Shown in pieces: positions 15,275-59,100 of a stretch of DNA of 64,000 nt (position 1 is its first letter; each line of letters opens with the position of its first letter). The position numbers and the translations under genes are program-made. The DNA is from Reyranella massiliensis 521. GTDB taxonomy: Bacteria > Pseudomonadota > Alphaproteobacteria > Reyranellales > Reyranellaceae. The DNA lies in NCBI RefSeq assembly GCF_000312425.1, contig NZ_HE997181.1, positions 5,007,788-5,071,787 on the forward strand. Reading direction: 5' to 3'. The notes beneath the pieces were generated by a model. It had not been told where the DNA came from, searched no databases, and was given only the letters and a program-made list of their open reading frames with translations.

Positions 15275-16627
15275 TCAAATGGCGAGAATCACGATGTCGA
15301 CGGGCTCCGCGACACCGCTGACCGTCCGATTCATCCGTCGTTCCCGAGGTTCGGCGGGTACGTAACCCTGATGCTCGGCCAATCGGTAGGTCGCAACATC
15401 TGTCAGGGCACACGTATGTTCCTCCTTGTTGTGCTTCTCCAGTTTCGCCGCGAAATTCACGGCGTCGCCGATCACGGTGAACTCCAGCCGTTCGCCGTCG
15501 CCCACCGCGCCAAAGACGACCCGCCCGGAGGATACGGCCAGCCCGACCTGGAGAGGCGCCATGGCCGCAGCCTGACGCTCGCGTGACCATTGCGTGGCGG
15601 CCGCCATCACGGCGTCGGCGGCGCGCAGCGCATCGGCCGCGGCCGTCGGCGATGGCGCAACTGCGCCAAACGACGCGAGGATGCCGTCGCCCAGGAATTT
15701 GTCGATACTACCGCCGTGCGCGGCGATCAGCGGGCAGATGCGACCCTGATACTCCTGCAGGAGTTTCATCACCGCGTCGGGGGCGAGTTCGGTCGACAGC
15801 CGCGTGAAGCCGCGCAGGTCGACCGTCAGGATGGCGACGTCGCGCAGCTCGCCTTCGCCGGCCCTGATCGACATCGAGGCGCCCCGGATACGTGCCGCGA
15901 CGCCGGGATCGAAGAAGCGCGAGAGATCGCGGGCGGCGACGCCCTCGCTCACCGCACGCACCAGCAGATAGCGTGCGCGGGCAATGGCAAGAGCCAGCAC
16001 AATGGTCGTCAGCAGGATGGCGACCATCTTGTCGATCTCGGCGTAGAGCAGCAGCGCATTGCCGGTCATGTATTCGACGAAGTCGTCAGTCGGGTTGGGC
16101 GGGCCGCCGCGGCCGCCGATGGCGTAAAGGACGAGACCGATCCAGCCCAGAATGGCGACCAGGCCGGTAAACAGGACGAAGCGCGCCTCGAAGCGCAACG
16201 CGCGCAGGGCGATGAACAGGAATACGTAGAGAAGCGTCGGCACCTTCAGATAGAAGACGGCCGGCTGCGCATACTTGTAGTGGAACGAGTAGATCAGGCC
16301 CATCAGCAGGGCCATGTCCGCGATCACCGACAGGTAGAGCATCCAGGGCTTGAGCAGGCGGGCATAGGCGAGGCCGAGCCGCAGCAGGCAGAAGAGGCCA
16401 TAGATCGCGAGCACCTCGACCTCGAAGGAGTAGTCCTCCTGCACCACCCCTGTAGGCATGGCGGTCGACTCGTAGACCGTGGTGACCAGCACGACGATCG
16501 CGAGCTGGACCCAACCGATCAGGATTTCGCTTTGCTCCTGCTGGCGGCGGATCGCCGCCAGCACGCGCTCCGGCAGTTGCCCGTCGCCTGCGCCATCGAA
16601 CAACCATGCGCGCAGGCGGCCAAGCAT
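15275..16627 (-). CDS. Membrane-bound class III adenylate/guanylate cyclase
   Basis: A 450-residue protein with an N-terminal membrane domain of about six helices (residues 35-220, including IGWVQLAIVVLVTTVY, MLYLSVIADMALLMGLIY and VAILLTTIVLALAIARARYLL) and a C-terminal class III cyclase domain. The catalytic domain shows both metal-binding aspartates (ILTVDLRGFTRLS and IDKFLGDGILASFG) and the FTVIGDAVNFAAKLE helix, so it looks active. The ATG at 16627 follows the upstream methyltransferase stop by 10 bp. It would make cAMP in response to a membrane signal; the input is unknown. Confidence 0.9.
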   Translation of the reverse strand: MLGRLRAWLFDGAGDGQLPERVLAAIRRQQEQSEILIGWVQLAIVVLVTTVYESTAMPTGVVQEDYSFEVEVLAIYGLFCLLRLGLAYARLLKPWMLYLSVIADMALLMGLIYSFHYKYAQPAVFYLKVPTLLYVFLFIALRALRFEARFVLFTGLVAILGWIGLVLYAIGGRGGPPNPTDDFVEYMTGNALLLYAEIDKMVAILLTTIVLALAIARARYLLVRAVSEGVAARDLSRFFDPGVAARIRGASMSIRAGEGELRDVAILTVDLRGFTRLSTELAPDAVMKLLQEYQGRICPLIAAHGGSIDKFLGDGILASFGAVAPSPTAAADALRAADAVMAAATQWSRERQAAAMAPLQVGLAVSSGRVVFGAVGDGERLEFTVIGDAVNFAAKLEKHNKEEHTCALTDVATYRLAEHQGYVPAEPRERRMNRTVSGVAEPVDIVILAI

Positions 16628-27162: not shown

Positions 27163-27651
27163 CTAGCCGACCCGGTAGAGGAAATACCGGCCCTCCGGCA
27201 CGCCGGGGGGATCGGGCTGGCGCTGCCAGCGTGCGACGTCGAGCGCCTGATTGGCGAGAACATAGCTTCCTTTGGCGGCCAGGGCGTCGAGCGCGGGGCC
27301 GAGCCATTTCCCCATAGCGACGTTGGCCTGATGATCGCCGGTGCCGAGGTCGGTATGGATCAGCGCCGCCGTCGCGCCGAGCGAGGCGGCGGCACGCGGG
27401 ATCGATTCGCTCGCTTCGCCGAGAAACAGCCGGTTGTCGGGCGGGATGCAGTCGGGATGGGCCGCCACCTTGCGCTCGAACACGAAGATGTCCCGACCGG
27501 GAAAGAGATCGCGCAAATGGTCGTAGGTACGGCCGTTGCCCAGCCCGACTTCGAGGATCGGTCCGGGCAGGGCGTCGATGGCGGGCTTCAGAAAATTGAG
27601 GCAATCGCGCTGCGCCTTCATGCGCGCAATGAAACTGTCGAGACGACTCAT
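27163..27651 (-). CDS. Small class I SAM methyltransferase-like protein
   Basis: A 162-residue protein with motif I as ILEVGLGNGRTYDHL (residues about 32-46), an acidic motif II position in IFVFERKVAAHP, and a later ALIHTDLGTGDHQAN segment in place of motif IV. It is short for a methyltransferase and lacks an obvious substrate lid. It is the third gene after the unusual ABC exporter and the cNMP-binding protein (9 bp gap), which suggests a shared role. The target is unknown. Confidence 0.75.
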   Translation of the reverse strand: MSRLDSFIARMKAQRDCLNFLKPAIDALPGPILEVGLGNGRTYDHLRDLFPGRDIFVFERKVAAHPDCIPPDNRLFLGEASESIPRAAASLGATAALIHTDLGTGDHQANVAMGKWLGPALDALAAKGSYVLANQALDVARWQRQPDPPGVPEGRYFLYRVG

Positions 27652-27660
27652 GCGTGATGC

Positions 27661-28113
27661 TCAGGCCGCTGCCCTTGTCGCCGCACGCAGCTTCTCGTTG
27701 GTGTCTTCCAGACGATGCGCCAGCTCGCGCATGATCTCGACCGCCATCTGCGGGAACTCCGCGACCAGGCGGTAGAACATGTCCTTGGTGATTTTGAGCG
27801 TGCTGAGCGGTTCGCGCGCCTTGATGGTGGCGGTACGCGGCACATCGCACAGGATGGCGATCTCGCCGAAGAAGCTGTTGGGCTGCATCTCGGCGACCAC
27901 GATCTGGCCCTTGTCGGTGTCGATCAGCACGTCGGCGACGCCGCCCAGGATGACGTACATCGTATCGCCGGGGTCGCCCTGGTGGCAGACCTCCTGGCCT
28001 GCGGCGAAATTCACGCGCTCGCTAGTGAAGGCCAGCAGCTTCAGCTTCGCCTGCTCGACCTTGGAAAAGATAGGAACGCCCTTCAACAGCTCGACTTCCT
28101 CGTTGAGGTTCAT
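27661..28113 (-). CDS. Cyclic nucleotide-binding domain protein
   Basis: A 150-residue protein that is essentially a single CRP-like cNMP-binding domain. The fold pattern is clear: LKGVPIFSKVEQAKLKLLAF, FAAGQEVCHQGDPGDTMYVILGG, and the phosphate-binding cassette FFGEIAILCDVPRTATIKA (Glu and Arg of the cNMP pocket are present). A C-terminal helix follows but no helix-turn-helix, so it is not a transcription factor. It lies 18 bp downstream of the ABC exporter and 9 bp before the methyltransferase gene, and may give cAMP control to one of them. Confidence 0.9.
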   Translation of the reverse strand: MNLNEEVELLKGVPIFSKVEQAKLKLLAFTSERVNFAAGQEVCHQGDPGDTMYVILGGVADVLIDTDKGQIVVAEMQPNSFFGEIAILCDVPRTATIKAREPLSTLKITKDMFYRLVAEFPQMAVEIMRELAHRLEDTNEKLRAATRAAA

Positions 28114-28131: not shown

Positions 28132-30852
28132 CTACGCCGACGCCATCAGCTCAGCATAGAGCCCACCCTTTGCCGCCAGGTCCGCCGGTGCGCCCTGTAC
28201 GGCAACCCGCCCGCCCTGCATGACGACGACCTGCTCGAACGGCTCGGCCTGGCTCGCCCGGTTGGCAATCCACACGACGCCGCGCCCTTCTTCGGCCGCC
28301 GCGGCCAGGATGTTGTCGCGAATGCGATCCTGCGTGCGGCCGTCGAACATGGCCACCGCTTCGTTCACCACCAGGAGCTGCGGCCGCTTGATCAGTGCAC
28401 GGGCGATGCCGAGCTTCTGGCGCTGCGTTGCCGGCAGGCGCTTGCCTCCGACGCCGACATTGTACTCCAGGCCGACTTCGATCACCGAATCGCGCAGGCC
28501 GAGCTTGTCCAGCACTTCGGCGATGAGCGTGCCGATACGCTCGCCCGCCTGCGCCTGGCCGTAGACCAGGCGGCCGAACAGGATGTTGTCCTGCAGGGTG
28601 GCTGCGCTGTTGTAGCGGCCGAAATCATAGAACTCGACGGCGTCGTGCAGGCTCTCCGGCAGGCCGTCGGCGAAGCTGCGCCGGGCTTGCAGGATGCGCT
28701 CTTCCATCGCCGCGTCGATCAGGCCGAGGCGATGGCGTGCCTCGATGTACCGGAACGGCAGGGTCATCAGGCGCGTGCGGTCGGCCTCGGGCACGGCTTC
28801 GATGCCCTTGCCGCCCAACCGCTGCAACAACAGCCGCACATTGGGCAGCTCGTCGGCCGAGATGAAGCTGTACTGCTCGAACAACGGATTGTCCGGCGAC
28901 AGGCCGGAGAAGAGTTCGACCATGGTCTCGGCGATCGACAGGCCCATGCGCTGCAGGTCGAGATCGAGGCCGGTGGCCTGCAGGACCGACCGGACGTAGG
29001 GGTCCGCCGCGATATTGTCGCCGTCGAACTGCTTGCCGACCGCCGTGCCGAACAGCAGGTTCTCCGCGACCGAGAGGTTGCGGATGTAGTGGTCCTTGTC
29101 GAACCGCTCGACGAGGCCGGCGTAGGTGCCGTCCTTCAATCTCTCGTGCAGCGCATGGCGCGCCTTCAAAATCTTCTCCGCGAGGTCGGGCCGCGCCGCG
29201 GCATCGACGGTGCCACGCAGGCCCAGCGAATAGACGTCTTCATCGAGCTCGACCTGCTTCAACACCTTGACGATGCACGGCAGCAGGTCCTCCGGGCCGG
29301 TGGCGCCGGCCAGCTCGTAGTCCACCCAATCGGCATTTGGATCGAGCGACGGATTGCCGGCGCGTTCCGATTCCTTCCAGAAGGTCTCGCGCAGGGCCTT
29401 GGCGGCCTCGTCGTAGGTGGCCGGCGCAATCGGCCGGAGCTTCAGGCCGAACAGCAGGTTCTCGCGGACCGTTAGTGGAAACAGGTAGGTGTCCTGGCCG
29501 ATATAGGCCACGCGTGCACCGAGCACGTATTCGGGAAGCTGGAAGAAATCCTTGCCGTCGATCTTGATCGAGCCGCTGCTCGGCAGCGCCTGACGCGCCA
29601 GCACCTGGCCCAGCACGTCCTTGCCCGAGCTGGCGGCGCCGATAATGGCACAGCGCGCCGCCGTCGACAGGGTGAGCGATACGCTGTCGAGCTGCTTCAC
29701 GCGCCCGTCTTCCGAAACCACGACGCCGGCCAGAGCGAGTTCCTTGCCGAGAGCCGGCGGCGGACCGTCGGGGATTGCCTGCAGCTCCGGCGGCATCATG
29801 CCCTCGGGCTGGAACTGGTCGATCACCTGCTCGTACTTGATCTGGACGTCCTGGCGCTGCTGGTCCCAGTCGATCAGCTCCTTGATCGGCGAGGGCAGGT
29901 CTTTGTAGGCGAGCAGAACGCCGACCACGGCGCCCACGTCCATGCGGCCGGTGATGGCGAAGTAGCCACCCACCAGGTAGATCGCGAACGGCGTGGCCTG
30001 GGAGAGGATGTTGTTCCAGAACTTGGCCAGGAACTTCTTCTGGTAGAGATCGAAGCGGATCTTGAAGATCCGGCCCAGGCGCTCCGTGATGTCGGCGCGC
30101 TCGTAGTTGGCGGCGCCGTGGATGTGGATTTCGGTGATGCCGTCGGCGGTCTCGGCGATCCGGCCGGCGAGCTGGCGGGCCGTGATCTGACGTTCCCTAC
30201 CGAGCACCAGCACGGGCTTGCGGAGCCGCGGGATGATCATCATCTGCGCCGCCAGCAGCACGATCACGATGATTCCGAGGGCCCAGCTCTGCAGCATGAT
30301 GAAGATGATGGCCGTCAACGCCTGGCCGCCCAGGAACATCGGCTGCACGAAGGCATCGCCGATGAAACCGCCGAGCGGCTCGACCTCGTCCTTGATCATG
30401 GTCGCGAGTTCGGCCTGTTTCACCTTCCGGAAGTGAGCCGGCGGAAAGCGCAGGATGCGGTCATAAAGCTCGTAGCGCAGGCGGCGCAGCATGCGCTCGC
30501 CCATGCGGCCCTTCTGGGTATTGATCGTCTTCTTGAAGAGGCCGTTGACGATGACGGCTCCAAGAAAGACGAAGCTCATCGCCACGAGGTATTGAAGCTG
30601 GTCGACCTGAAAGCCGTCGAAGAGGCGAATCACCTTGCCGGGCAGGAAGGCCGAGAGGTCGAACTCCCAGACCAGGAACGGGATGGTGTGCTGGTTCTTG
30701 AAGGCGTTGCCCTGGATGCCATTGTTGATGACATCCTTCGGGACAGTCAGCGACAGGAAGTAGAAGACCTGGGCCAATACGACGAGCGCCAGGATCACGA
30801 CCTGCTCAGGTCGGCTGTAGCGCCAGATGTAAGCGAAGAGACTGCGTTCCAT
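28132..30852 (-). CDS. ABC exporter with degenerate, expanded nucleotide-binding domain
   Basis: A 906-residue protein. Residues 1-330 form a type IV exporter membrane domain (MERSLFAYIWRYSRPEQ, about five or six TM helices, GRMGERMLRRLRYELYDRIL). The ATPase half is abnormal. Walker A is GAASSGKD (405-412, Asp where Ser/Thr is normal), the signature is GKRLPATQRQ, Walker B is LLVVNEAVAMFD (Asn before Glu), and the switch histidine is replaced (IANRAS). About 330 residues are inserted between Walker A and the signature. The segment after the Q-loop recurs: TVRENLLFG (461-469), SVAENLLFG (594-602), TLQDNILFG (752-760). ATG 30852 is preferred to GTG 30864. It heads the operon with a cNMP-binding protein and a methyltransferase. 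Confidence 0.82.
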   Translation of the reverse strand: MERSLFAYIWRYSRPEQVVILALVVLAQVFYFLSLTVPKDVINNGIQGNAFKNQHTIPFLVWEFDLSAFLPGKVIRLFDGFQVDQLQYLVAMSFVFLGAVIVNGLFKKTINTQKGRMGERMLRRLRYELYDRILRFPPAHFRKVKQAELATMIKDEVEPLGGFIGDAFVQPMFLGGQALTAIIFIMLQSWALGIIVIVLLAAQMMIIPRLRKPVLVLGRERQITARQLAGRIAETADGITEIHIHGAANYERADITERLGRIFKIRFDLYQKKFLAKFWNNILSQATPFAIYLVGGYFAITGRMDVGAVVGVLLAYKDLPSPIKELIDWDQQRQDVQIKYEQVIDQFQPEGMMPPELQAIPDGPPPALGKELALAGVVVSEDGRVKQLDSVSLTLSTAARCAIIGAASSGKDVLGQVLARQALPSSGSIKIDGKDFFQLPEYVLGARVAYIGQDTYLFPLTVRENLLFGLKLRPIAPATYDEAAKALRETFWKESERAGNPSLDPNADWVDYELAGATGPEDLLPCIVKVLKQVELDEDVYSLGLRGTVDAAARPDLAEKILKARHALHERLKDGTYAGLVERFDKDHYIRNLSVAENLLFGTAVGKQFDGDNIAADPYVRSVLQATGLDLDLQRMGLSIAETMVELFSGLSPDNPLFEQYSFISADELPNVRLLLQRLGGKGIEAVPEADRTRLMTLPFRYIEARHRLGLIDAAMEERILQARRSFADGLPESLHDAVEFYDFGRYNSAATLQDNILFGRLVYGQAQAGERIGTLIAEVLDKLGLRDSVIEVGLEYNVGVGGKRLPATQRQKLGIARALIKRPQLLVVNEAVAMFDGRTQDRIRDNILAAAAEEGRGVVWIANRASQAEPFEQVVVMQGGRVAVQGAPADLAAKGGLYAELMASA

Positions 30853-31039
30853 TGATTCCCGCACTACGGCGATCTCGTCTCCCGTATAGGCGATCAGGCC
30901 CTTGATTACATTCGGTTTTTTCGGGCAAGAAGTGGCCGGAAAGTTGGTGGGGGTGCGCGGCGACCCTGCCTTATGGCATAATTTGTCGAGACTTCACCGG
31001 TCGGGGCAGGAAGCGCTTCGGCAACGGGAGACGCACTGC

Positions 31040-32320
31040 ATGTCGTTAAGCGGCCGGTCCAAGCGTGTGCTGCTGTACAGCCACGACTCCTTCGGTCTCG
31101 GCCATGTGAGCCGGTGCCGTACCATCGCCAATGCGATCGTCGAGGCCGACCACACGGTCTCCGTCCTGATCGTTTCGGGCTCGCCGATCATCGGTTCCTA
31201 CGAATTCCGTTCGGGCATCGACTTCGTGCGTATTCCCGGCGTGGTGAAGCAGATCGACACCGGCGAGTACGATTCGGCCAATCTGCGGGTGAACGTCGAG
31301 CATACACTCGAGATGCGCACCCGCATTATCCGCGATACGGCCGACATCTATCGGCCGGACCTTTTCATCGTCGACAAGGAGCCGCTCGGCCTGCGTGGCG
31401 AGGTCGGCCCAGCGCTGCACTTGCTGAAACAGCGTGGCACCCCGCTGGTGTTGGGCCTGCGCGACGTCATGGACGACCCCGCCCAGCTCGCCAAGGAGTG
31501 GGAGCGCAAGAATGTCGTGCCGGCGCTGCGCGACCTCTACGACGAGATCTGGGTCTATGGCCTGCCGCAGATCAACAAGCCGCTGACCGGCATCGAGGTG
31601 CCGCCGTCGGTGCGCCACAAGATGATCTACACCGGCTACCTGCGCCGCGAGCTGCCGTTGCACACCGACGTGCCGCACGAGGGCGAGGACATCGACGGGC
31701 CGTTCATCCTGGTCACGCCGGGTGGCGGCGGCGATGGCGTCGAGCTGGTCGACTGGGTTCTGTCCGCTTACGAGACCGATTCGAACATCCCCTACGGGGC
31801 GGTGATCGTGTTCGGTCCGTTCATGTCGGCCGCGGCGCGCGAGGCCTTCAAGGAACGCGCGGCCAAGTTCCGCAACATCCGGACGCTCACCTTCACCAAC
31901 AATCTCGGCGCGCTGATGCAGCGCGCAGCGGGTGTCGTCGCGATGGGCGGCTACAACACGTTCTGCGAAATCCTGTCCTTCGACAAGAAGGCCATTATCG
32001 TGCCGCGCACGCGGCCACGGCTGGAGCAGTTCATTCGCGCGCGCGCGGCGCGCAACGTCGGCCTGCTCGAAATGCTCGATGCCGATCGCGGCTGCGATCC
32101 GCAGCATATGGCAACCGCGCTGCGCCAGTTGCCGCAGCAGGGCCTGCCGAGCGAAGTCGTGGTGCCCGGCCTGCTCGACGGCCTCGGCAACGTCTGGCGC
32201 CTCGTCTCCAAGCAGCTCGCGAATCCGCATCGCGGCCCGGCCTCGCTCGACCCTCCCGAGGTGCCGGCCAGCCCGGTAGCGACGGACACGGCCTCGCTGC
32301 CGTCGCGCGCCAGGACCTGA
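31040..32320 (+). CDS. Glycosyltransferase, MurG-like GT-B fold
   Basis: A 426-residue cytosolic protein with GT-B features: RVLLYSHDSFGLGHVSRCRTIANAI at the N-terminus, like MurG-type nucleotide-sugar transferases, and GVVAMGGYNTFCEILSFDKKAIIVPR in the C-terminal donor-binding lobe. A Pro/Ala-rich tail ends the protein. It is related in plan to the gene at 35321 (GHLRRAATLARAL and AGYNTVVETL). It is the first gene of a six-gene glycan cluster and is divergent from the ABC exporter. Acceptor and donor are unknown. The ATG at 31040 gives the conserved N-terminus directly. Confidence 0.82.
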   Translation: MSLSGRSKRVLLYSHDSFGLGHVSRCRTIANAIVEADHTVSVLIVSGSPIIGSYEFRSGIDFVRIPGVVKQIDTGEYDSANLRVNVEHTLEMRTRIIRDTADIYRPDLFIVDKEPLGLRGEVGPALHLLKQRGTPLVLGLRDVMDDPAQLAKEWERKNVVPALRDLYDEIWVYGLPQINKPLTGIEVPPSVRHKMIYTGYLRRELPLHTDVPHEGEDIDGPFILVTPGGGGDGVELVDWVLSAYETDSNIPYGAVIVFGPFMSAAAREAFKERAAKFRNIRTLTFTNNLGALMQRAAGVVAMGGYNTFCEILSFDKKAIIVPRTRPRLEQFIRARAARNVGLLEMLDADRGCDPQHMATALRQLPQQGLPSEVVVPGLLDGLGNVWRLVSKQLANPHRGPASLDPPEVPASPVATDTASLPSRART

Positions 32321-32333
32321 TAGCCGGTCTTTC

Positions 32334-33626
32334 ATGTCTCAGAGTTCCGGTCAGAAAACAGGGACCGCGCGCGTCGCGGTCGTCCTCAAGGGGTGGCCGC
32401 GCCTGTCGGAAACCTTCATCGCTCAGGAGCTGGCGGGTCTGGAGGCGCGCGGCGTGGCGCTCGAACTCTGGTCGATGCGCCATCCGACCGACAAGGAACG
32501 CCATCCGGTGCACGACAGGGTCCGGGGTCGCGTCGTCTATCTGCCGGAATACCTCAAGGACGATCCGCGCCGTGTCTTCGCCGGCTGGCTGAAGGCGCGC
32601 CGGTTTCCCGGCTACGGCGCGGCTAGGCGGAAATTCCTCGCCGATCTGCGGCGCGACTTCACGCCGAACCGGGTGCGCCGCTGGGGGCAGGCCTTGGTGC
32701 TGGCGGCCGAGCTGCCGCCCTCGATCGAAAGGCTCTACGCGCATTTCCTGCACACGCCTGCGTCGGTGACCCGCTATGCCGCCACCATGCGCGGTTTGCC
32801 GTGGAGCGTGTCGGCCCACGCCAAGGACATCTGGACCAGCGAATCCTGGGACGTGAGCGAGAAGCTGGAGGATTGCGCCTGGCTGGTGACCTGCACGAAT
32901 CTCGGCCTGCAGCGCCTGAAGGAGTTGGCGCCGCATCCGGAGCGGCTGCGTCTCGTCTATCACGGGCTCGACTTTGCGCATCTGCCGCCGCCGCCTCTGG
33001 CGCGCCCGCGCCGCGACGGCACGGATCCGCAGGATCCCGTCACTGTGCTGTCGGTCGGCCGCAAGGTCGAGAAGAAGGGCTACGGCGATCTCCTCGATGC
33101 GCTCGCCCGCCTGCCGCGCTCCCTGCATTGGCGGTTCGAGCATATCGGGGCCGGCGGCCTCTCCGATGCGTTGAAGGCGGAGGCAGCTGTACTTGGCATT
33201 GCGGAGCGCTGCATCTGGCGCGGTGCCCAGCCGCAAAAGGAGGTCTTCGCAGCGCTCGCGCGCGCCGATCTCTTCGTGCTGGCCGCCAAGAAGGCGGCCG
33301 ATGGCGACCAGGACGGTCTGCCCAACGTATTGATGGAAGCGGCCTACCAGGGCCTGCCGCTGGTTTCGACCTCGGCGGCGGCGATCGGCGAGTTCATCGA
33401 AGATGGCGAGAACGGCTTGCTCGTTCCGCCGGGCGCTCCCGACGCGCTGAGTGCAGCGTTGGCTCGCATGATCGGCGATCCCGATCTGCGCCAGCGCCTC
33501 GCCGAGTCCGCGGGCGAGATCGTACGCACACGTTTTTCTTTCGAGGCCGGTGTCGACTGGATCGCCTCGTCGCTCGGTGAGCCGCGTTCGTCACAGCAAT
33601 CCGCTGCCGCACGCGCTGCGGCGTAG
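32334..33626 (+). CDS. Glycosyltransferase family 4 protein
   Basis: A 430-residue GT4-type enzyme. The N-terminal lobe begins VAVVLKGWPRLSETFIAQELAGLE, the form seen in capsule and colanic-type transferases. The C-terminal lobe has VTVLSVGRKVEKKGYGDLLDALA, GAQPQKEVFAALARADLFVLAAKK and the EX7E-like donor site DGLPNVLMEAAYQGLPLV. It follows the first transferase by 13 bp and precedes a second GT4 gene by 4 bp. It probably adds one sugar in a surface or secreted glycan. Confidence 0.88.
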   Translation: MSQSSGQKTGTARVAVVLKGWPRLSETFIAQELAGLEARGVALELWSMRHPTDKERHPVHDRVRGRVVYLPEYLKDDPRRVFAGWLKARRFPGYGAARRKFLADLRRDFTPNRVRRWGQALVLAAELPPSIERLYAHFLHTPASVTRYAATMRGLPWSVSAHAKDIWTSESWDVSEKLEDCAWLVTCTNLGLQRLKELAPHPERLRLVYHGLDFAHLPPPPLARPRRDGTDPQDPVTVLSVGRKVEKKGYGDLLDALARLPRSLHWRFEHIGAGGLSDALKAEAAVLGIAERCIWRGAQPQKEVFAALARADLFVLAAKKAADGDQDGLPNVLMEAAYQGLPLVSTSAAAIGEFIEDGENGLLVPPGAPDALSAALARMIGDPDLRQRLAESAGEIVRTRFSFEAGVDWIASSLGEPRSSQQSAAARAAA

Positions 33627-33630
33627 CGCC

Positions 33631-34734
33631 ATGCGCGTGCTCCTGCACACGCCGTTGAAGCCCCCCGACAGTCCCGTGCCGTCGGGCGATCGCGAAATGG
33701 CGCGCGGCCTGTCGCGCCTGCTGCGACGTCTCGGTCATGAAGTCCTGATGCCGGCCGCGAGCCGGGTCGCGCCGGGCGTGCCGGCCGCCGACGCCCATAT
33801 CGACTTGGAGCGGCGCGCGCGGGCCCAGGCGGCGCGGCTGATCGCGCACTGGAAGGCGCTGCCGGCCCATCATCCGCAACGCTTCGATCTCTGGTTCACT
33901 TACCATTGCTACTACCGCAAGCCCGACTGGCTGGGGCCTGCGGTCACCGATGCGCTGGGCATTCCCTATGTGATCGCCGAAGCCAGCCACGCGCCGCGCC
34001 GCGCCCAGGGGCCGACCCGGCTCGGCCATCGCGCCGTCGAGCGGGCACTGGCCGCTGCCGATCTCGTGCTGACCCTGAATCCGCGCGATGTGCCCGGCGT
34101 GAAGACCCGGCTACGGCCCGGCGCGCGTCAGGTCTGGCTGCCGCCGTTCATCGATACCGCACCGTTCCGTTGCTCGTCGCGCCGCGACCCGAATCTTCCG
34201 CCGCTGCTCCTGAGCGTCGGCATGATGCGCACGCGCGACAAGGCGGACTCCTACCGCGTGCTGGCGCGCGCCCTCGGCAAGTTGAAGGACCGTTCCTGGC
34301 GGGCGCTGCTGGTGGGCGATGGGCCGGCGCGGCCCGAAATCGAATCGCTGATGGCGCCGCTGGGCGACCGCGTCGTGTTCGCTGGCGCACGATCGCATGC
34401 GGAACTGCCGGCGATCTATCGGTCGGCGGACCTTTACCTTTGGCCGGCGATCAACGAAGCCTATGGCATGGCTTTCCTCGAAGCGCAGGCGTCGGGCCTT
34501 CCCGTGGTTGCTGGCCGGACCGGCGGCGTACCGGCTGTTGTGGCCGACGGCGTCACCGGCCTGTTGACGCCGATCGGCGACGCCGATGCCTTTGCCGCTG
34601 CCGTGGCGCATCTGCTCGACGCGCCGCAGGAGCGTGCGCGTCTCGCCGCCGCTGCTGCGGCCCGTGTGGCGGCCCATCACGACGAGCGTGCTGCGGCGCG
34701 TGCCCTGGCGATGGCGCTCCGGACCTTGCGATGA
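33631..34734 (+). CDS. Glycosyltransferase family 4 protein
   Basis: A 367-residue GT-B glycosyltransferase. The N-terminus (MRVLLHTPLKPPDSPVPSGDREMARGL) and a middle LLLSVGMMRTRDKADSYRVLARAL lead to the donor-binding motif AINEAYGMAFLEAQASGLPVV, with both Glu residues of the EX7E motif. It starts 4 bp after the previous gene and overlaps the next as ATGA, so the cluster is tightly coupled. Specificity is unknown. Confidence 0.88.
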   Translation: MRVLLHTPLKPPDSPVPSGDREMARGLSRLLRRLGHEVLMPAASRVAPGVPAADAHIDLERRARAQAARLIAHWKALPAHHPQRFDLWFTYHCYYRKPDWLGPAVTDALGIPYVIAEASHAPRRAQGPTRLGHRAVERALAAADLVLTLNPRDVPGVKTRLRPGARQVWLPPFIDTAPFRCSSRRDPNLPPLLLSVGMMRTRDKADSYRVLARALGKLKDRSWRALLVGDGPARPEIESLMAPLGDRVVFAGARSHAELPAIYRSADLYLWPAINEAYGMAFLEAQASGLPVVAGRTGGVPAVVADGVTGLLTPIGDADAFAAAVAHLLDAPQERARLAAAAAARVAAHHDERAAARALAMALRTLR

Positions 34735-35324
34735 CGGGTATTCCTTTCGCCATCCTGCGGCATGGGCCGACCGACTGGAACGCGACGGGCCGCCTGCAGG
34801 GCCTGACCGATACCGATCTCAGCCCCGATGGTGAGGCGTTGGTGCGGCGCTGGCGATTGCCGCCGCCGGCCGATGGCTGGAAACGGGTGTGCAGCCCGCT
34901 GCGGCGTGCCCGCCGCACGGCGGAGCTGCTGCGGCCGGCGATGCCGGCCGGCACCGATTCGGCCCTGCGCGAGATGAGCTTCGGCGTCTGGGAGGGCCGG
35001 ACGCTGGCCGACCTGCGGGCCGACGGCGGCGAGAGCTTTGCTGCTGCGGAAGCCGCCGGCCTCGATTTTCAGCCGCCGGGTGGCGAGTCGCCGCGCGCGA
35101 CCATGGTTCGCCTTGCCGGCTGGGCCTCGTCGTTGCGCGAGCCCGTCGTTGCCGTATCGCACAAGGCGGCGATCCGGGCGCTGCTGGCGCTGGCCACCGG
35201 CTGGGACATGCTGGGACGTCCACCCCACAAGCTCGATTGGCGTTCGGTGCATTTCTTCGTGGTGTCGGGCGACGGCAGAGTCGCGATCGACCGTCTCAAT
35301 GTGCCGTTCGAGAGCGCGCCATGA
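34731..35324 (+). CDS. Histidine phosphatase superfamily protein
   Basis: A 197-residue phosphoglycerate-mutase-like phosphatase. The catalytic RHG motif is present (FAILRHGPTDWNATGRLQGLTDTDLS), followed by VCSPLRRARRTAEL, the Glu-containing EMSFGVWEGR, and the second histidine in VVAVSHKAAIRALLAL. All four active-site residues are therefore in place. In this glycan cluster it may remove a phosphate from a sugar-phosphate intermediate. That role is inferred from context only. Confidence 0.9.
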   Translation: MTGIPFAILRHGPTDWNATGRLQGLTDTDLSPDGEALVRRWRLPPPADGWKRVCSPLRRARRTAELLRPAMPAGTDSALREMSFGVWEGRTLADLRADGGESFAAAEAAGLDFQPPGGESPRATMVRLAGWASSLREPVVAVSHKAAIRALLALATGWDMLGRPPHKLDWRSVHFFVVSGDGRVAIDRLNVPFESAP

Positions 35325-36469
35325 CGGAGCGTGTCTTCCTTTACGTGCAGCATCTGCTGGGCATCGGCCATCTGCGCCGGGCGGCCACTCTGGCGCGGGC
35401 GCTGGTGTCGGGCGGTTTCGACGTGCTGCTGGTTTCGGGCGGCGCGCCGGTCGCGGGAATCGATCTCGGGGGCGCACGTTTCCATCAACTACCGCCGTTG
35501 CGTGCGGCCGACGCGCGGCTGAAGGAGCTGGCGCAGCTCGACGGCACGCCGATCGACGAGGCTTTCCGTGCAGCGCGCACGCGCCAATTGCTTGAGCTGT
35601 TCGATGCGGAACAGCCCGACATACTGTTGACGGAACAGTTTCCCTTCGGCCGCACGCAGCTTCGCTTCGAGCTGCTGCCGCTGCTCGAAGCGGCGCAGAA
35701 CCGCGCCTCCGCCCCGTGGATCGTTTCTTCGGTACGCGACGTGCTGCGGCGCTCGGCCTCGCCGGCCCGGGTCGACGAGATGGTCGTGACCTTCGAGGCT
35801 TTCGACGCGGTGCTGATCCATGCCGATCCGGCGCTGGTGCGCCTCGACGAGAGCTTTCCGGCCTGGCCCGACATCCAGGATCGCGCGCTCTACACCGGCT
35901 ACGTCGCCGAGGTCGATCCGGCGCGCGCCCTGCAAGGGTCGGTTGGCGCGGGCGAGGTGATCGTCTCGGCCGGTGGCGGCGCGGTCGGCATGCCGCTGTT
36001 GCAGGCCGCCATCGCGGCGCGCCCGATGACCGGGCTGGCCGACCGCAGGTGGCGCCTGTTGCTGGGGCCAAACGTGTCTGGGGCGGAGGAGGAGACGCTG
36101 CGCGCTGCAGCCAGCGAGGGCATCGTCGTCGAGCCCGCGCGGGCCGACTTTCCGAGCCTGCTGCGCAATGCGGCGCTCTCGATCTCGCAGGCCGGCTACA
36201 ACACTGTGGTCGAGACGCTCTGCCTTGCCGACCGGGCTGTCCTGGTGCCGTTCGGCACGGCGCGCGAGACGGAGCAGGCCGACCGCGCGCGCGTACTGGT
36301 CGAACGCGGCATGGTGGCGTCGGTGCCGCCGGATACGCTCTCGCCACAGAGCCTGGCGGCGGCCGTTGCGCGTGCCTGGGCCGGCCCGTCGATCCGCAGC
36401 TTTCCGGCCGTCGATGCAAATGGCGGCCCGGCGACGGTCGCCGCCTTGAAGCAGATGCTGTCGCCATGA
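35321..36469 (+). CDS. Glycosyltransferase, MurG-like GT-B fold
   Basis: A 382-residue protein sharing the plan of the first gene of the cluster: VFLYVQHLLGIGHLRRAATLARALV at the N-terminus, VIVSAGGGAVGMPLLQAAIA in the middle, and the donor lobe LSISQAGYNTVVETLCLADRAVLVPFGT. It resembles MurG-type transferases in which the GGYNT/AGYNT loop contacts the nucleotide sugar. ATGA overlaps link it to the phosphatase before it and to the deacetylase-like gene after it. Confidence 0.82.
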   Translation: MTERVFLYVQHLLGIGHLRRAATLARALVSGGFDVLLVSGGAPVAGIDLGGARFHQLPPLRAADARLKELAQLDGTPIDEAFRAARTRQLLELFDAEQPDILLTEQFPFGRTQLRFELLPLLEAAQNRASAPWIVSSVRDVLRRSASPARVDEMVVTFEAFDAVLIHADPALVRLDESFPAWPDIQDRALYTGYVAEVDPARALQGSVGAGEVIVSAGGGAVGMPLLQAAIAARPMTGLADRRWRLLLGPNVSGAEEETLRAAASEGIVVEPARADFPSLLRNAALSISQAGYNTVVETLCLADRAVLVPFGTARETEQADRARVLVERGMVASVPPDTLSPQSLAAAVARAWAGPSIRSFPAVDANGGPATVAALKQMLSP

Positions 36470-37218
36470 CCTCCTGGCAGGCTCTGGCCGACGAGGCGGC
36501 GCGCTGGCGCGATGCGGGGCGCACGGCCGACCTCTGGTGGCGCGACGACGACGCGGCGGATGTCGATCCTGCCTTGGATCGTCTGCTGGCCATCCAGCGC
36601 GACACGGCCGCCCCGCTCGCCCTGGCCGTCGTGCCGGCGCGTGCCACGGCGGCACTGGCGCAACGGCTGGCCGGTGAGCCGGGCATCGATGTGCTGCAGC
36701 ACGGCTATGCCCACCTGAATCATGCCGCGCCGCCCGACAAGAAGATCGAACTCGGGCTGCAGCGACCCGCGATGATCGTGCTGGGCGAACTCGGCACCGG
36801 CTGGATGGCCCTGGAGCGGCTGTTCGCGGCGCAGGCCCTGCCGGTCATGGTCCCGCCATGGAACCGCATCGCCGACATCCTGGTGCCGACCCTGCCGGAG
36901 ATCGGCTATCGCGGTCTGTCGACCTTCGGCCCCCGCAAGCGCGCCCAGCCGGTGCGCGGGTTTCTTCAGGTTAACACCCATATCGACCTGATCGACTGGA
37001 AGGCCGGCGGCGGCTTCGTCGGCGAGGATGCCGCTCTCGCTATCCTGGTCGAAGCGCTTGGGCGCTCGCGCCGCGGCGATGGCGAGCCGATAGGTCTGCT
37101 CAGTCATCATCTTGCGATGGACGGCCGGGCTTGGGATTTCCTAAGGTCGGTTTTGGAAGCAACAAAAACGACGCAAGGGCTGTGTGTTCGCGCGGCGCGC
37201 GAGCTTTTCGCGTCGTGA
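36466..37218 (+). CDS. Polysaccharide deacetylase-like protein
   Basis: A 250-residue protein related to NodB-type deacetylases. The metal-binding Asp pair appears as DLWWRDDDAAD (residues 22-32), and the His site as VLQHGYAHLNH. MVPPWNRI matches motif 3 and LLSHHLAMDG the last catalytic histidine. It lacks a signal peptide, so it may act on a cytosolic sugar intermediate. It is the last of six overlapping or nearly contiguous glycan genes. Confidence 0.82.
   Translation: MTSWQALADEAARWRDAGRTADLWWRDDDAADVDPALDRLLAIQRDTAAPLALAVVPARATAALAQRLAGEPGIDVLQHGYAHLNHAAPPDKKIELGLQRPAMIVLGELGTGWMALERLFAAQALPVMVPPWNRIADILVPTLPEIGYRGLSTFGPRKRAQPVRGFLQVNTHIDLIDWKAGGGFVGEDAALAILVEALGRSRRGDGEPIGLLSHHLAMDGRAWDFLRSVLEATKTTQGLCVRAARELFAS

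Positions 37219-37746: not shown

Positions 37747-37750
<4 letters not shown>
37244..37750 (+). CDS. Membrane protein with PH-like domain, unknown function
   Basis: A 168-residue protein starting at GTG with a GGGAGGAG ribosome site. Two adjacent TM helices (about residues 22-38 and 42-60, GIGVLLCGAPLLLLEVNYWLAA and GFALFALFLLRTAL) are followed by a soluble domain (RYVLGPDTLCADGPAG, RLDRMKLSYFSTKRDRSDGW, LIKVDSSLDGFHDIVERA) that looks like a bacterial PH-type domain. I do not recognise a specific family. It overlaps the peptide-transporter ATPase gene as ATGA. Confidence 0.72.
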
Positions 37751-39705
<1,955 letters not shown>

Positions 39706-39707
39706 GC

Positions 39708-40706
39708 ATGTTGCGCTTCATCGTCCGCCGCGTGCTGCTGATGATCCCGACCCTGTTCGTGATCAGCGCGCTCGTCTACTTCATCATCGACCTGCCGCCG
39801 GGCGACTGCGTTTCCTCGCAGATCGACGAGTTGCTGGCGCGCGGCGACGCCGATGCGCATCAGCGCGCCGACGAGCTGCGCGAGCTTTACGGCCTCAATA
39901 TGCCACTCTGGCAGCGCTATCTGAGCTGGGTCAGCGGCATCTTCCGCTGGGATTTCGGCCTGTCCTGCCAGGATACCGTGCCGGTGGCCGACCTGATCGG
40001 CGAGCGGCTGACGCTCACCATCATCATGGAAACCAGCACGATCGCCTTCATCTGGATCGTGTCCTTCCTGATCGGCACCTATGCCGCCACGCACCAGTAC
40101 AAGCTCGGCGACTATGTCGCCTCCTTCATCGGCTTCATCGGGCTCGCCATCCCGAACTTCCTGCTGGCGCTGGTGCTGCTCTACGTCGGCAAGGTCTATT
40201 TCGGACTGTCGATCGGCGGCCTGATGGATCCCGAGTACATCGACAAGCCGCTGAGCTGGGGCAAGGTCGTGTCGGTCATGCAGCATCTGATCATTCCGGT
40301 GATCGTGATCGGCATGTCGGGGACCGCCGGCATGATCCGCCGCCTGCGCGCCAATCTGCTCGACGAACTGCAGAAGCAATATGTCGTCACCGGCCGCGCC
40401 AAGGGCCTGCCTCCCATGAAGCTCCTGGTGAAATACCCGCTGCGCCATTCGCTGAACCCGTTCGTGGCCGACATCGGCGGCCTGTTGCCCGACGTCATTT
40501 CGGGGTCGGTCATCGTCTCGGTCGTGCTGTCGCTTCCCACGACCGGCCCGATGCTGCTGGGCGCGCTCAAGACCCAGGACGTCAACCTCGCGGCCACCTT
40601 CCTGCTGTTCGTGGCGGCTCTCACCGTGATCGGCATGCTGATTTCGGACCTGGCGCTGGCCGCTCTCGACCCGCGTATCCGCTTCGGCGCGACTTCGGAG
40701 AAGTGA
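39708..40706 (+). CDS. Peptide ABC transporter permease, DppB/YejB type
   Basis: A 332-residue inner-membrane permease. The N-terminus MLRFIVRRVLLMIPTLFVISALVYF is the DppB hallmark. About six TM helices follow, with the EAA coupling motif around GRAKGLPPMKLLVKYPLRHSLNPF. It starts 2 bp after the ATPase stop and pairs with the next gene. It would form the inner half of a peptide or oligosaccharide importer. Confidence 0.92.
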   Translation: MLRFIVRRVLLMIPTLFVISALVYFIIDLPPGDCVSSQIDELLARGDADAHQRADELRELYGLNMPLWQRYLSWVSGIFRWDFGLSCQDTVPVADLIGERLTLTIIMETSTIAFIWIVSFLIGTYAATHQYKLGDYVASFIGFIGLAIPNFLLALVLLYVGKVYFGLSIGGLMDPEYIDKPLSWGKVVSVMQHLIIPVIVIGMSGTAGMIRRLRANLLDELQKQYVVTGRAKGLPPMKLLVKYPLRHSLNPFVADIGGLLPDVISGSVIVSVVLSLPTTGPMLLGALKTQDVNLAATFLLFVAALTVIGMLISDLALAALDPRIRFGATSEK

Positions 40707-40713
40707 GCCGGAC

Positions 40714-41895
40714 ATGACCGATATCACCCCCAATTCCAACCCGCCGCGCCGCACGCCGCACTTCGTCAGCCAGGAGCCGTGGGATCCCTACGTCTCCGAG
40801 CGCCTGACCAAGGAGCAGGAACGCTACTACATGGCGGGCCAGTGGAAGCTGATGTGGTGGCGCTTCCGCCGCCACCGGCCGGCCGTCGTCTCCGCGATTT
40901 TCCTGGCGCTGATGTACTTTTCCACGCTCATCAGCGAGTGGATCGCGCCCTACGACCTGCACACGCGCAATTCGCGCTACATCTTCGCAGCCCCCCAATC
41001 CGTGCATCTCTTCCACGAGGGCAGGTTCATGGGGCCGTTCGTCTACGGCCTGAAGATGGAACGCGATCCGGCGACCCTGCAGCGGGTCTATTCGCCCGAT
41101 ACGACCAAGCCGCAGCAGCTGCGCTTCTTCTGTCTCGGCGAGCGCTACGAATTCTGGGGCCTGATCGAAGGCCGCTTCCACCTCGTCTGTCCGCCGGAGG
41201 ACGGGACGTTCTTCTGGCTGGGGACCGACCGGCTGGGGCGCGACATGTTCAGTCGCATCGTCTACGCGGCGCGAATCTCCCTCACCATCGGCATCATCGG
41301 CATTTCGCTCTCCTTTGCTCTTGCGCTCATACTGGGAGGGCTCGCCGGTTACTATGGCGGTTGGGTCGACAGCGTCGTGCAGCGCATCACCGAGATCATC
41401 AAGAGCTTCCCGCATCTGCCGCTGTGGCTGGCGCTGTCGGCGGCATTGCCCGTCACCTGGTCGCCGCTGCTGATCTATTTTGGCATCACGCTGATCCTGG
41501 CGCTGCTCGACTGGCCGGGCCTCGGCCGCGCGGTACGCTCCAAGCTCCTGTCCCTGCGCGAGGAGGACTATGCGGCGGCCGCCCAGATGATGGGCGCCAA
41601 GCCGGCCCGCATCATCGGCCGTCATCTGCTGCCGGGCTTCATGAGCCATCTCATCGCTTCGGCCACGCTGTCGATCCCCTCGATGATCCTGGCGGAAACG
41701 GCGCTCTCCTTCCTGGGCCTCGGCCTGCGACCGCCCATCACGTCGTGGGGCGTGCTGTTGAACGAGGCGACCGACATCAACGTCGTTGCGGTAAACTGGT
41801 GGCTGATGCTGCCGGTGGTGCCGGTGATTCTGGTGATCCTGGCCTATCAGTTCATGGGCGACGGCATGAGGGACGCTGCGGATCCTTACGCCTGA
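40714..41895 (+). CDS. Peptide ABC transporter permease, DppC/YejE type
   Basis: A 393-residue permease. A cytosolic N-tail and TM1 (RPAVVSAIFLALMYFSTLI) lead to an enlarged periplasmic segment of about 100 residues containing IAPYDLHTRNSRYIF and LIEGRFHLVCPPEDGTFF. The standard GTDRLGRDMFSRIVYAARISL start of the transport domain and the EAA loop (AAAQMMGAKPARIIGRHLLPG) come next. The long loop is like that of YejE-type permeases. No solute-binding protein gene is linked, so the receptor must be encoded elsewhere. Confidence 0.92.
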   Translation: MTDITPNSNPPRRTPHFVSQEPWDPYVSERLTKEQERYYMAGQWKLMWWRFRRHRPAVVSAIFLALMYFSTLISEWIAPYDLHTRNSRYIFAAPQSVHLFHEGRFMGPFVYGLKMERDPATLQRVYSPDTTKPQQLRFFCLGERYEFWGLIEGRFHLVCPPEDGTFFWLGTDRLGRDMFSRIVYAARISLTIGIIGISLSFALALILGGLAGYYGGWVDSVVQRITEIIKSFPHLPLWLALSAALPVTWSPLLIYFGITLILALLDWPGLGRAVRSKLLSLREEDYAAAAQMMGAKPARIIGRHLLPGFMSHLIASATLSIPSMILAETALSFLGLGLRPPITSWGVLLNEATDINVVAVNWWLMLPVVPVILVILAYQFMGDGMRDAADPYA

Positions 41896-56152: not shown

Positions 56153-59100
56153 CTACGCGCGCGGATGCGAGAGACGTCGCAGCAGCTCGGCGCCCGTCGC
56201 TTCGACCAGACTGTTGAAAGACGCCGACGCCGGGCCGCCGATCAGCCACTCGCTGTAGGCCAGCCAGACCTTCGCACCGCGCCGGCGTGCCACCGCGGCT
56301 GCTTCCTCGGCGGTGTCGCGCGCGCGATCGACGAGGCCGGCGCGGAGCTGGACATGGGCGAGATCGGCCAGCAGGCGCGCTTCGTTCTCCAGCCCGGCAT
56401 TGCGGCGGCGCGCGTAGGCCAGAGCATCGCTGAGCGTCGTCGTCGCGTCGGAATGGGCGCCGCGTATGGCCTGTGCCAGCCCGGCATAGCCCTTGCCGTA
56501 GACCAACAGGTAGGGATTGCCGCTGCGCTCCGCGAGCTGCAGCGCCTGCTTGCTGTGAAAGTCGAGCAACTCCAGATCGCCCAGCGCCCACGCGATGTCG
56601 CACTGGGTCGCGTGGGCCAGCAGCCTGTGCAACACGTCCACCGTCGTCTCGTCGGCTGCGATCAGTGCGTCGAGCAGCGGCCTCGCCTCGTCGAACCGTC
56701 CCATCATGGCAAGGATCTGGGCGCGCATGCCGTTGATCCAGATGGCGATACTGAAGCCCAGCGTCTGCTGATCGATGTCGTCGATGTCCTTCACGCGCGC
56801 CAAGGCGCGATCGTTGGCTTCGAGCGCGCGCGACAGGCTTCCCGACAGCCTGAGGGCGTGGCACAGGATCGCCGTCAGGACGACGCGCAGGCTGGCGTTG
56901 CGCACACTGTCGTCGACCGTCGCTAGCACGTCGTCGACGGTGGCTACATAGTCCTCGGCTGAGCCGCTGGCCGCCAGGACCCGGCCATATGCCGCCGTCA
57001 GCAGCGTGATGGCCCGCATGTCGCCCAGCTCGCGGGCGATCGTCAGGGCCTCGGTGTAGTAAGGCTCGATATCGACGGCCGTCAGCCCTTCGCGCCAGGC
57101 GAGGTTCACGATCTGACCGCTGGCCATCAGCAGCGGATACCGCTGCTGCCCCTGCAGGGACAGGCCGCTCAACAGACGATGCGCGCGCTTCCAGGCCTGC
57201 AGGGCTTGGGCGGCGTCGCGCGTGCCGTGCCAGGTTCCCGCCTTCATGCTGTACGAGGCGGCCTGCAGCGGGTTGCCGGCCTCCTCCCAGTGATAGGCGA
57301 TGAAGCCTGCCTGGGCGCCGTTGGGATCGGGCAGGGTCTTCTCGAGTTCGGCGGCCACGGCGGCATGCAAGTTGCGGCGCTTCTCGGAAAGCAGCGAGTG
57401 ATAGGCGACGTCCTGGACCATCGGATGCCGGAAGGCGTAGAGGTCGTCGCCGCCGGCGCCGGCCTCGTAGACCAGGCCGGCGCTGGCCAGGCGATGCATC
57501 ACATTGCCGAGTTGGGAGGCGAGCCCCCCGACCAGCCGCGCCAGCACGGGCAGGGCGAATTCGCGGCCGATGACCGCGGCTGTCTGCAGGATCGACTTCT
57601 CGGCCTCCGGTTGCCCATCGATGCGCGCGCCAATGATCGCCTGCACCGTGTCGGGCACCAGCCGCATGTCGGGCGATCGGCGCAATCGATAGACGCCACG
57701 TTCGCCCACGAGGTCGCCACTCTCCTCGAACTTGCGCACCAGTTCCTCGATGAACAGCGGATTGCCGCGGGCGCGGTCGGCCATCAACGACAGCAATGGC
57801 GCCACCGATTCGTCGTCGCCGAGAAGTTGTGCCGCCAGTTGATCTGCCGCTCCTCGCCGCAACGGCGCCAGCGAGACCTGGTCGTAGTGGTCGCCATGCA
57901 TCCAGGCCGCGGCATAGCCGGGGCGAAAGTTGACCACGAGCAGGATGCGCGTGCCGGGCAGCGACTCGGCCAATACCTCGAGAAGCGATTCGCTGCCGGA
58001 ATCGAGGAAGTGCAAATCCTCGAGCAGGATGACGGCGGGCGTCGTTGCGCCGGCGGTGCGAATGAGCCGGCGGAACAGGCCGTTCAGCCGTTCGCGCCGC
58101 ACGACCGGATCGGCGCGGGAGAGCTTCGTGGCCGGATCGGCAACGCCCAGGAAATCGAACAGCAGTGCCAGGTCGGCGCCGAGGTCGACACCCAGCGACT
58201 GCAGCACCGTGATGATCTTCTCGCGGGCCCGTTCCGGTTCGTCGTCCGGCGTCATCTCGAAGAGAGCCTTCATCACGTCGATGACCGGCTCGAAGGGGGT
58301 CGCGCGACTGTGCGCGAGCGCGAGGCCTTCGAGCACGCGGATGCCGCGTGCGCGGCAGCGTTCGGTGAATTCGAAACAGAGCCGGCTCTTGCCGATACCG
58401 GCGTCGGCCACCAGGCCGACCGCGCATCCGTCGCCTTCGTCGGCCCGTTCCAGGCCACGTTCGAGCACCGCCATCTCGGTGTCGCGTCCGACGAATTCCG
58501 AGCGGCCGATCTCGTTGCTGAACCGCTGGCTGTTGGGGCCGCGCCGCAGGCCGGTCAGCAGGAAGATCTCGAGTGGCGCCGAAAGGCCGCGAATCGGCTG
58601 CGTGCCGAGCGACTCGACGGATACGAACTGACGGGCGCCGCGCAGAGTCGCCGACGAGAGCGCGATGCCGCCGGGAGGCGCCAGGTTCTGCAGGCGATTG
58701 GCGATATGCACCGTGAGGCCGGTCGCATCGAACTCGTTGGAGAAATCGTTGGCGATCACCCGCGCCAGCACCTCGCCCGAGTGTATGCCGACCCGGACGG
58801 GCGGCGCCTCTGCCGGCAAGGCTCTGAAAGCGGCCTGCATAGCCAGGGCGGCGCAGCAGGCGCGCACGGCATGATCTTCCTGCGGGTTGGGCGCACCGAA
58901 CAGCGCCATGACGCCATCGCCCTGAATCTTGACGACGGTACCGTCGAAGCGATGCACGGCCTCTTTCATCGTCTCGATGCAGGGGGCAAGACGACGGTCG
59001 GCTTCCTCGGGGTCGAGCGCTTCGATCAATTCCGTCGAGCCGAAGACGTCGGCGAACAGCACGGTGATCTGCTTCAGCTCGCCCCGAATGGTGAAGGTGT

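Follow-up and report, generated by a model that had tools for sequence, protein, structure and literature searches.

A family of exporter-type ABC proteins with degenerate ATP sites, a triplicated Q-loop/helical core and a conserved partner with a cyclic-nucleotide-binding domain

Introduction

What defines an ABC transporter is its ATP sites, yet in Reyranella massiliensis 521 one gene codes for an exporter-type ABC protein whose catalytic motifs have decayed. Located on the minus strand of the window (the whole 64-kb stretch of DNA that was analysed), the gene runs from an ATG at 30852 to a stop codon ending at 28132 and encodes 906 amino acids. A preliminary description of the window had drawn attention to the unusual motifs and to a repeated segment in an inserted region; the conserved partner and gene cluster reported below, which say most about function, were absent from it.

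Results and Discussion

Domain architecture and the ATP site

Pfam and Foldseek both recognised the layout of a type IV ABC exporter, in which a membrane domain of exporter type is joined to a nucleotide-binding domain. ABC_membrane (PF00664) matched residues 20-312 above its cut-off and ABC_tran also scored above cut-off, its match being split into two stretches. The top NCBIfam match, MsbA (5e-53), lay far below the family cut-off, and the full-length AlphaFold2 model matched type IV exporters (E ~1e-15 to 1e-16), TmrAB and TM287/288 among them. The relevant features are as follows.

28132..30852, minus strand: whole gene, ATPase-degenerate exporter-type ABC protein of 906 aa (open reading frame, Pfam, Foldseek)
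29818..30852, minus strand: membrane domain (residues 1-345), best conserved of all regions in the family (PF00664; site entropy)
29617..29640, minus strand: degenerate Walker A GAASSGKD, residues 405-412 (variable in the family)
28423..28437, minus strand: degenerate signature LPATQ, residues 806-810 (signature glycines in 3/42 and 4/42 sequences)
28360..28377, minus strand: degenerate Walker B LLVVNE, residues 826-831 (Asp 12/42, Glu 12/42)
28252..28269, minus strand: degenerate switch IANRAS, residues 862-867 (His 4/42)
29617-29619 and 28363-28365, minus strand: residues 412 and 830, possible charge swap (residue covariation)

The departures from consensus noted in the preliminary description were all present: Walker A reads GAASSGKD rather than GxxGxGK[ST], the signature LPATQ rather than LSGGQ, and Asn-Glu and Asn occupy the places of the Walker B Asp-Glu and the switch His (Walker B, VVNEA, at residue 828; the Q-loop, QDTYLF, at residue 453). 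The decay holds family-wide. In 42 sequences below 70% identity, the Walker A Lys is found in 15/42, its Ser/Thr in 8/42 and the Q-loop Gln in 6/42, and these three positions, like the two signature glycines, the Walker B Glu and the switch His, fall at the 60th-97th variability percentile. The family tree records repeated state changes at the Walker A Lys (four), Walker B Glu (seven) and Q-loop (five), and zero at N598 and N756. Within the same genome, another four ABC exporters retain GxxGxGK[ST], Asp-Glu and His, so that motif decay is not typical of the lineage. Judged from these motifs, ATPase activity has probably been lost. Mean site entropy across the family alignment was 1.34 for the membrane domain, as against about 2.0-2.1 elsewhere.

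Residue 412 as Asp/Glu tends to pair with Asn at residue 830, and Ser/Thr at 412 with Asp at 830, a correlation that on the family tree amounts to only about three independent events, too few for significance. One member, L103 (~44% identical), has kept a Walker A Gly and Lys together with the Walker B Glu and switch His, and perhaps lies nearest to the ancestral state. No relative combining intact motifs with the same insert was found among 397 sampled genomes and 60 relatives of another family.

Most close relatives, and the Reyranella clade itself, retain the Walker A Lys (K411) and Walker B Glu (E831), so that these proteins could still bind ATP or hydrolyse it slowly, and an atypical working ATPase becomes the main rival reading. 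On that reading the two residues would suffice for an active ATP-driven exporter, modulated by its partner and exporting a glycosyltransferase product, and both the switch His of L103 and the neighbouring glycosyltransferase genes are in keeping with it. However, most of the family lacks the signature glycines, switch His and Q-loop Gln, and many members lack the Lys and Glu themselves; we consider an active exporter somewhat unlikely.

The insert and its triplicated segment

The preliminary description had placed about 330 inserted residues between Walker A and the signature. An insert is indeed present, at a smaller size: ~395 residues separate the Walker A Lys from the signature, compared with roughly 100 in canonical exporters, so that the excess is nearer 295. 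No Pfam family covers it at an E-value limit of 10. The post-Q-loop motif occurs three times, TVRENLLFG, SVAENLLFG and TLQDNILFG at residues 461, 594 and 752 as first described, and the protein can be divided around these motifs into three units.

29137..29520, minus strand: unit A, residues 445-572, true Q-loop strand, TVRENLLFG helix and further helices (profile repeat, model)
28657..29136, minus strand: unit B, residues 573-732, inserted repeat with SVAENLLFG and ~70 extra residues (B-C E 3.5e-15, models)
28438..28656, minus strand: unit C, residues 733-805, TLQDNILFG and helices toward the signature (profile repeat, model)

Profiles of non-overlapping segments of the family alignment were compared by hhalign, and gave scores of 82.2 for B-C (E 3.5e-15), 41.6 for A-C (1.6e-7) and 37.4 for A-B (8.5e-6), compared with means of 11-13 and an overall maximum of 22.7 for 40 column shuffles per pair. 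A signal confined to the nine-residue motifs had been named in advance as the outcome counting against duplication. With the nine-mers masked the scores were 53.8 (B-C), 27.9 (A-C) and 31.4 (A-B), above the respective shuffle maxima of 19.1, 22.7 and 19.3, and the repeat signal thus extends past the motifs. Units A and B likewise match each other at their ends (E 7.9e-9). A further proposed mirror, of EKILKARHAL with QKLGIARAL, gained no support, giving no profile alignment (E 0.03).

AlphaFold2 modelled the whole protein with a pLDDT of 84.1, the insert lying mostly at about 80-95, and predicted the same order of elements three times: a strand (448-451, 581-583, 739-741), the xVxENLLFG helix, helices, and a long helix (555-572, 714-730, 808-821) occupying the signature-helix position in each unit. 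In the profile comparison, however, the long helices at the ends of units A and B showed no match to the real signature helix. Unit B folded alone reached a pLDDT of 91 and had no significant match in the PDB (best E 1.1), the helical subdomain itself being small; unit B also holds ~70 unrelated residues forming extra helices. The duplicated core amounts to ~60 residues, made up of the strand at the Q-loop exit, the xVxENLLFG helix and a helix pair after it. That this Q-loop/helical core is triplicated we accept; the wider proposal, duplication of the whole helical subdomain, is only partly supported, the profiles speaking for it and the unrelated helices and missing PDB match of unit B against. 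Three insert residues, N598, N756 and G760, are invariant in 42/42 sequences, and no distinct class of members carrying only part of the insert was seen.

Distribution and selection

The protein, treated at first as a lone oddity, belongs to a family: the same protein with the insert occurs in hundreds of Alphaproteobacteria and some Betaproteobacteria. A search of genome contigs matched 506 stretches, of which 494 were confirmed as relatives; among the best 80, which were retrieved, Reyranella and other Alphaproteobacteria predominate, and a small number of records bear the titles Betaproteobacteria, Burkholderiales or Nitrosomonadales. Plasmid records with a family member numbered 263, mainly from Rhizobium and Sinorhizobium, and among the 397 sampled genomes 36 matched the whole protein and 38 the insert profile. 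Annotated records label family members merely 'ABC transporter ATP-binding protein'. The preliminary description knew of no published account, and a search of the open-access full-text literature, a scope that makes absence weak evidence, likewise found none, HetC being nearest; the family, though widespread, is apparently undescribed. An insert match in another genome (G454:C1:1844934-1845920) lies inside a 1753-aa open frame, roughly double the usual length, which may be a fusion.

Between close relatives dN/dS was about 0.04-0.24 in every region, and the family is thus under purifying selection. Loss of catalytic motifs is what a decaying pseudogene or an assembly artefact would also display, yet the gene is intact in hundreds of genomes, and in one bacterial family is present in 37/37, a single copy being interrupted by an in-frame stop; selection and breadth together led us to reject this barely credible reading.

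Genomes of family f28 (G421, G386, G425, G411, G122 and G154; loci L111-L115 and L117) hold two paralogs of ~1010-1080 aa, and G122 has a third, more distant match. Such pairs are possible heterodimers. It is well established that a heterodimeric exporter can have one degenerate site, and the structural matches included TmrAB and TM287/288, so the R. massiliensis protein might be half of a heterodimer in which a canonical exporter partner provides the working ATP site. Nevertheless, no canonical exporter gene recurs alongside in annotated loci, the sampled paralogs are degenerate too, and both halves of the site are degenerate within one chain, which makes this arrangement improbable.

A partner with a cyclic-nucleotide-binding domain

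Directly downstream of the pseudo-exporter gene lies a second conserved gene.

27661..28113, minus strand: partner, 150-aa stand-alone cNMP-binding domain with no DNA-binding domain (PF00027 5.9e-21; adjacency)

Of the 111 loci with room for one, 106 carry a cNMP-binding gene or domain no more than 700 b downstream and on the same strand, a few of these being fused domains rather than separate genes. Of the remaining five, L010 has its partner 22 b downstream and the other four are Rhodobacterales/Azospirillum-type loci; three of the five exceptions (L112, L117, L122) are fused. Pfam located a C-terminal fused cNMP domain in L112, L113, L115, L117, L121 and L122, and L114 is of the same length class as the fused members; fusion to the pseudo-exporter C-terminus is a feature of Rhodobacterales and Azospirillum. 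One record annotates the partner as a Crp/Fnr transcription regulator, an assignment rejected here, as PF00027 was the only family above cut-off in the 150 aa.

The phosphate-binding cassette of the partner is retained (Gly 40/40, Glu, E84, 36/40, Arg, R93, 38/40), and the partner thus looks able to bind cyclic nucleotides, whether cGMP or cAMP. A Thr follows the cassette Arg in 35/40 partners, a feature which we take to recall cGMP-type sites. What is likely to be the signal-binding site has therefore been conserved, and the ATP site has not. The R. massiliensis genome encodes 27 class III cyclase domains; the window holds two (15416-15844 and 58556-59077, minus strand), the latter in a protein with zinc-ribbon and AAA_16 domains.

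Gene neighbourhood

The surrounding genes of the window include the following.

27163..27651, minus strand: Methyltransf_17-type methyltransferase, often third in the run (PF12692 2.2e-56)
30902-32320, plus strand: gt1 glycosyltransferase, divergent (Pfam; conserved neighbour)
32334-33626, plus strand: gt2 glycosyltransferase, divergent (Pfam; conserved neighbour)
33550..37218, plus strand: gt3, histidine-phosphatase-like, gt4 and deacetylase-like genes in conserved order (Pfam for gt3 and gt4; phosphatase and deacetylase named by resemblance only)
37747..41895, plus strand: Dpp/Opp-type importer, a fused double ATPase and two permeases (conserved neighbour)

A Dpp/Opp-type importer gene and/or gt1/gt2 was found nearby in 46 of 50 loci longer than 15 kb, and in six more distant loci (L074, L075, L077, L081, L083, L085) the importer operon continues into the pseudo-exporter and partner. 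On pSymB of Sinorhizobium meliloti the order is ATPase, binding protein, permease, permease, three glycosyltransferases, methyltransferase (opposite strand), pseudo-exporter and partner. The importer operon of the window (37747-41895), unlike that of S. meliloti, has no binding-protein gene between ATPase and permeases; the closest binding protein of the R. massiliensis genome is encoded elsewhere (G000 4049347, 48% identity). Shared gene order is largely a matter of common descent, so that the locus counts are not independent events, and the weight of the neighbourhood argument is carried by recurrence in distant groups and by the fusions.

The conserved cluster and the enlarged helical platform would also suit a membrane scaffold without transport, one that brings the glycosyltransferases or the importer together and that cyclic nucleotide releases or recruits. 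The membrane domain, which a pure scaffold would not need, is nevertheless the most conserved region, and we regard this possibility as distinctly improbable.

Proposed role of the family

Catalytic motifs have decayed, a segment has been triplicated and selection is purifying, and the membrane domain, partner and neighbourhood are conserved. These observations suggest that a transporter has become a switch or scaffold under the control of a signal. The reading we favour, at about even odds, is a family of ATPase-degenerate pseudo-exporters controlled by cyclic nucleotide via a partner subunit that is sometimes fused. The membrane domain has been retained during decay of the ATP machinery; in such a scheme the nucleotide-binding domain would now serve as a structural or regulatory module, made larger by the tandem Q-loop/helical copies. 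Binding of cGMP or cAMP by the partner would then change the platform and through it the membrane domain, the cyclic-nucleotide signal replacing or overriding the ATP cycle. The existence of natural fusions supports a putative physical complex between pseudo-exporter and partner. From the gene neighbourhood alone, the pseudo-exporter may act with the adjoining glycosyltransferases and Dpp-type importer in a surface-glycan or oligosaccharide/peptide process. A sharper version, rather unlikely as it stands, is that the exporter fold is nucleotide-dead and now serves as a cNMP-gated membrane channel, flippase or switch, its ATP sites supplanted by a cNMP-binding subunit docking on the tandem helical-subdomain platform.

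If control by cyclic nucleotide is borne out, the family would illustrate a different way to drive or gate the exporter fold, and its presence in genetically tractable symbionts (Sinorhizobium meliloti, Rhizobium) means that the proposal can be tested.

Comparison with known systems

Membrane and nucleotide-binding domains are common to the pseudo-exporter and the type IV exporters MsbA, TmrAB, TM287/288 and P-glycoprotein, from which it differs in its degenerate motifs, its ~295-residue insert with the repeated Q-loop/helical segment, and its cNMP-binding partner. In SUR1/SUR2 and CFTR the ABC exporter fold, with a degenerate site, has been repurposed as a regulator or channel. The likeness is one of analogy only, for to our knowledge these proteins still use ATP at a site and have neither such a cNMP-binding partner nor such an insert.

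Nearest in the literature searched is HetC of Nostoc, a C39-peptidase ABC exporter whose N-terminal cNMP-type domain is required in vivo and bound ppGpp, not cAMP (PMC10986499). Both systems combine an ABC exporter with a domain of cyclic-nucleotide-binding type. HetC, however, depends on its ATPase residue and carries a peptidase domain, whereas the pseudo-exporter has decayed ATPase motifs and no peptidase domain was found in it; the cNMP domain, N-terminal in HetC, is here a separate gene product or C-terminal. HetC thus stands as a precedent for a cNMP-type domain required by an ABC exporter.
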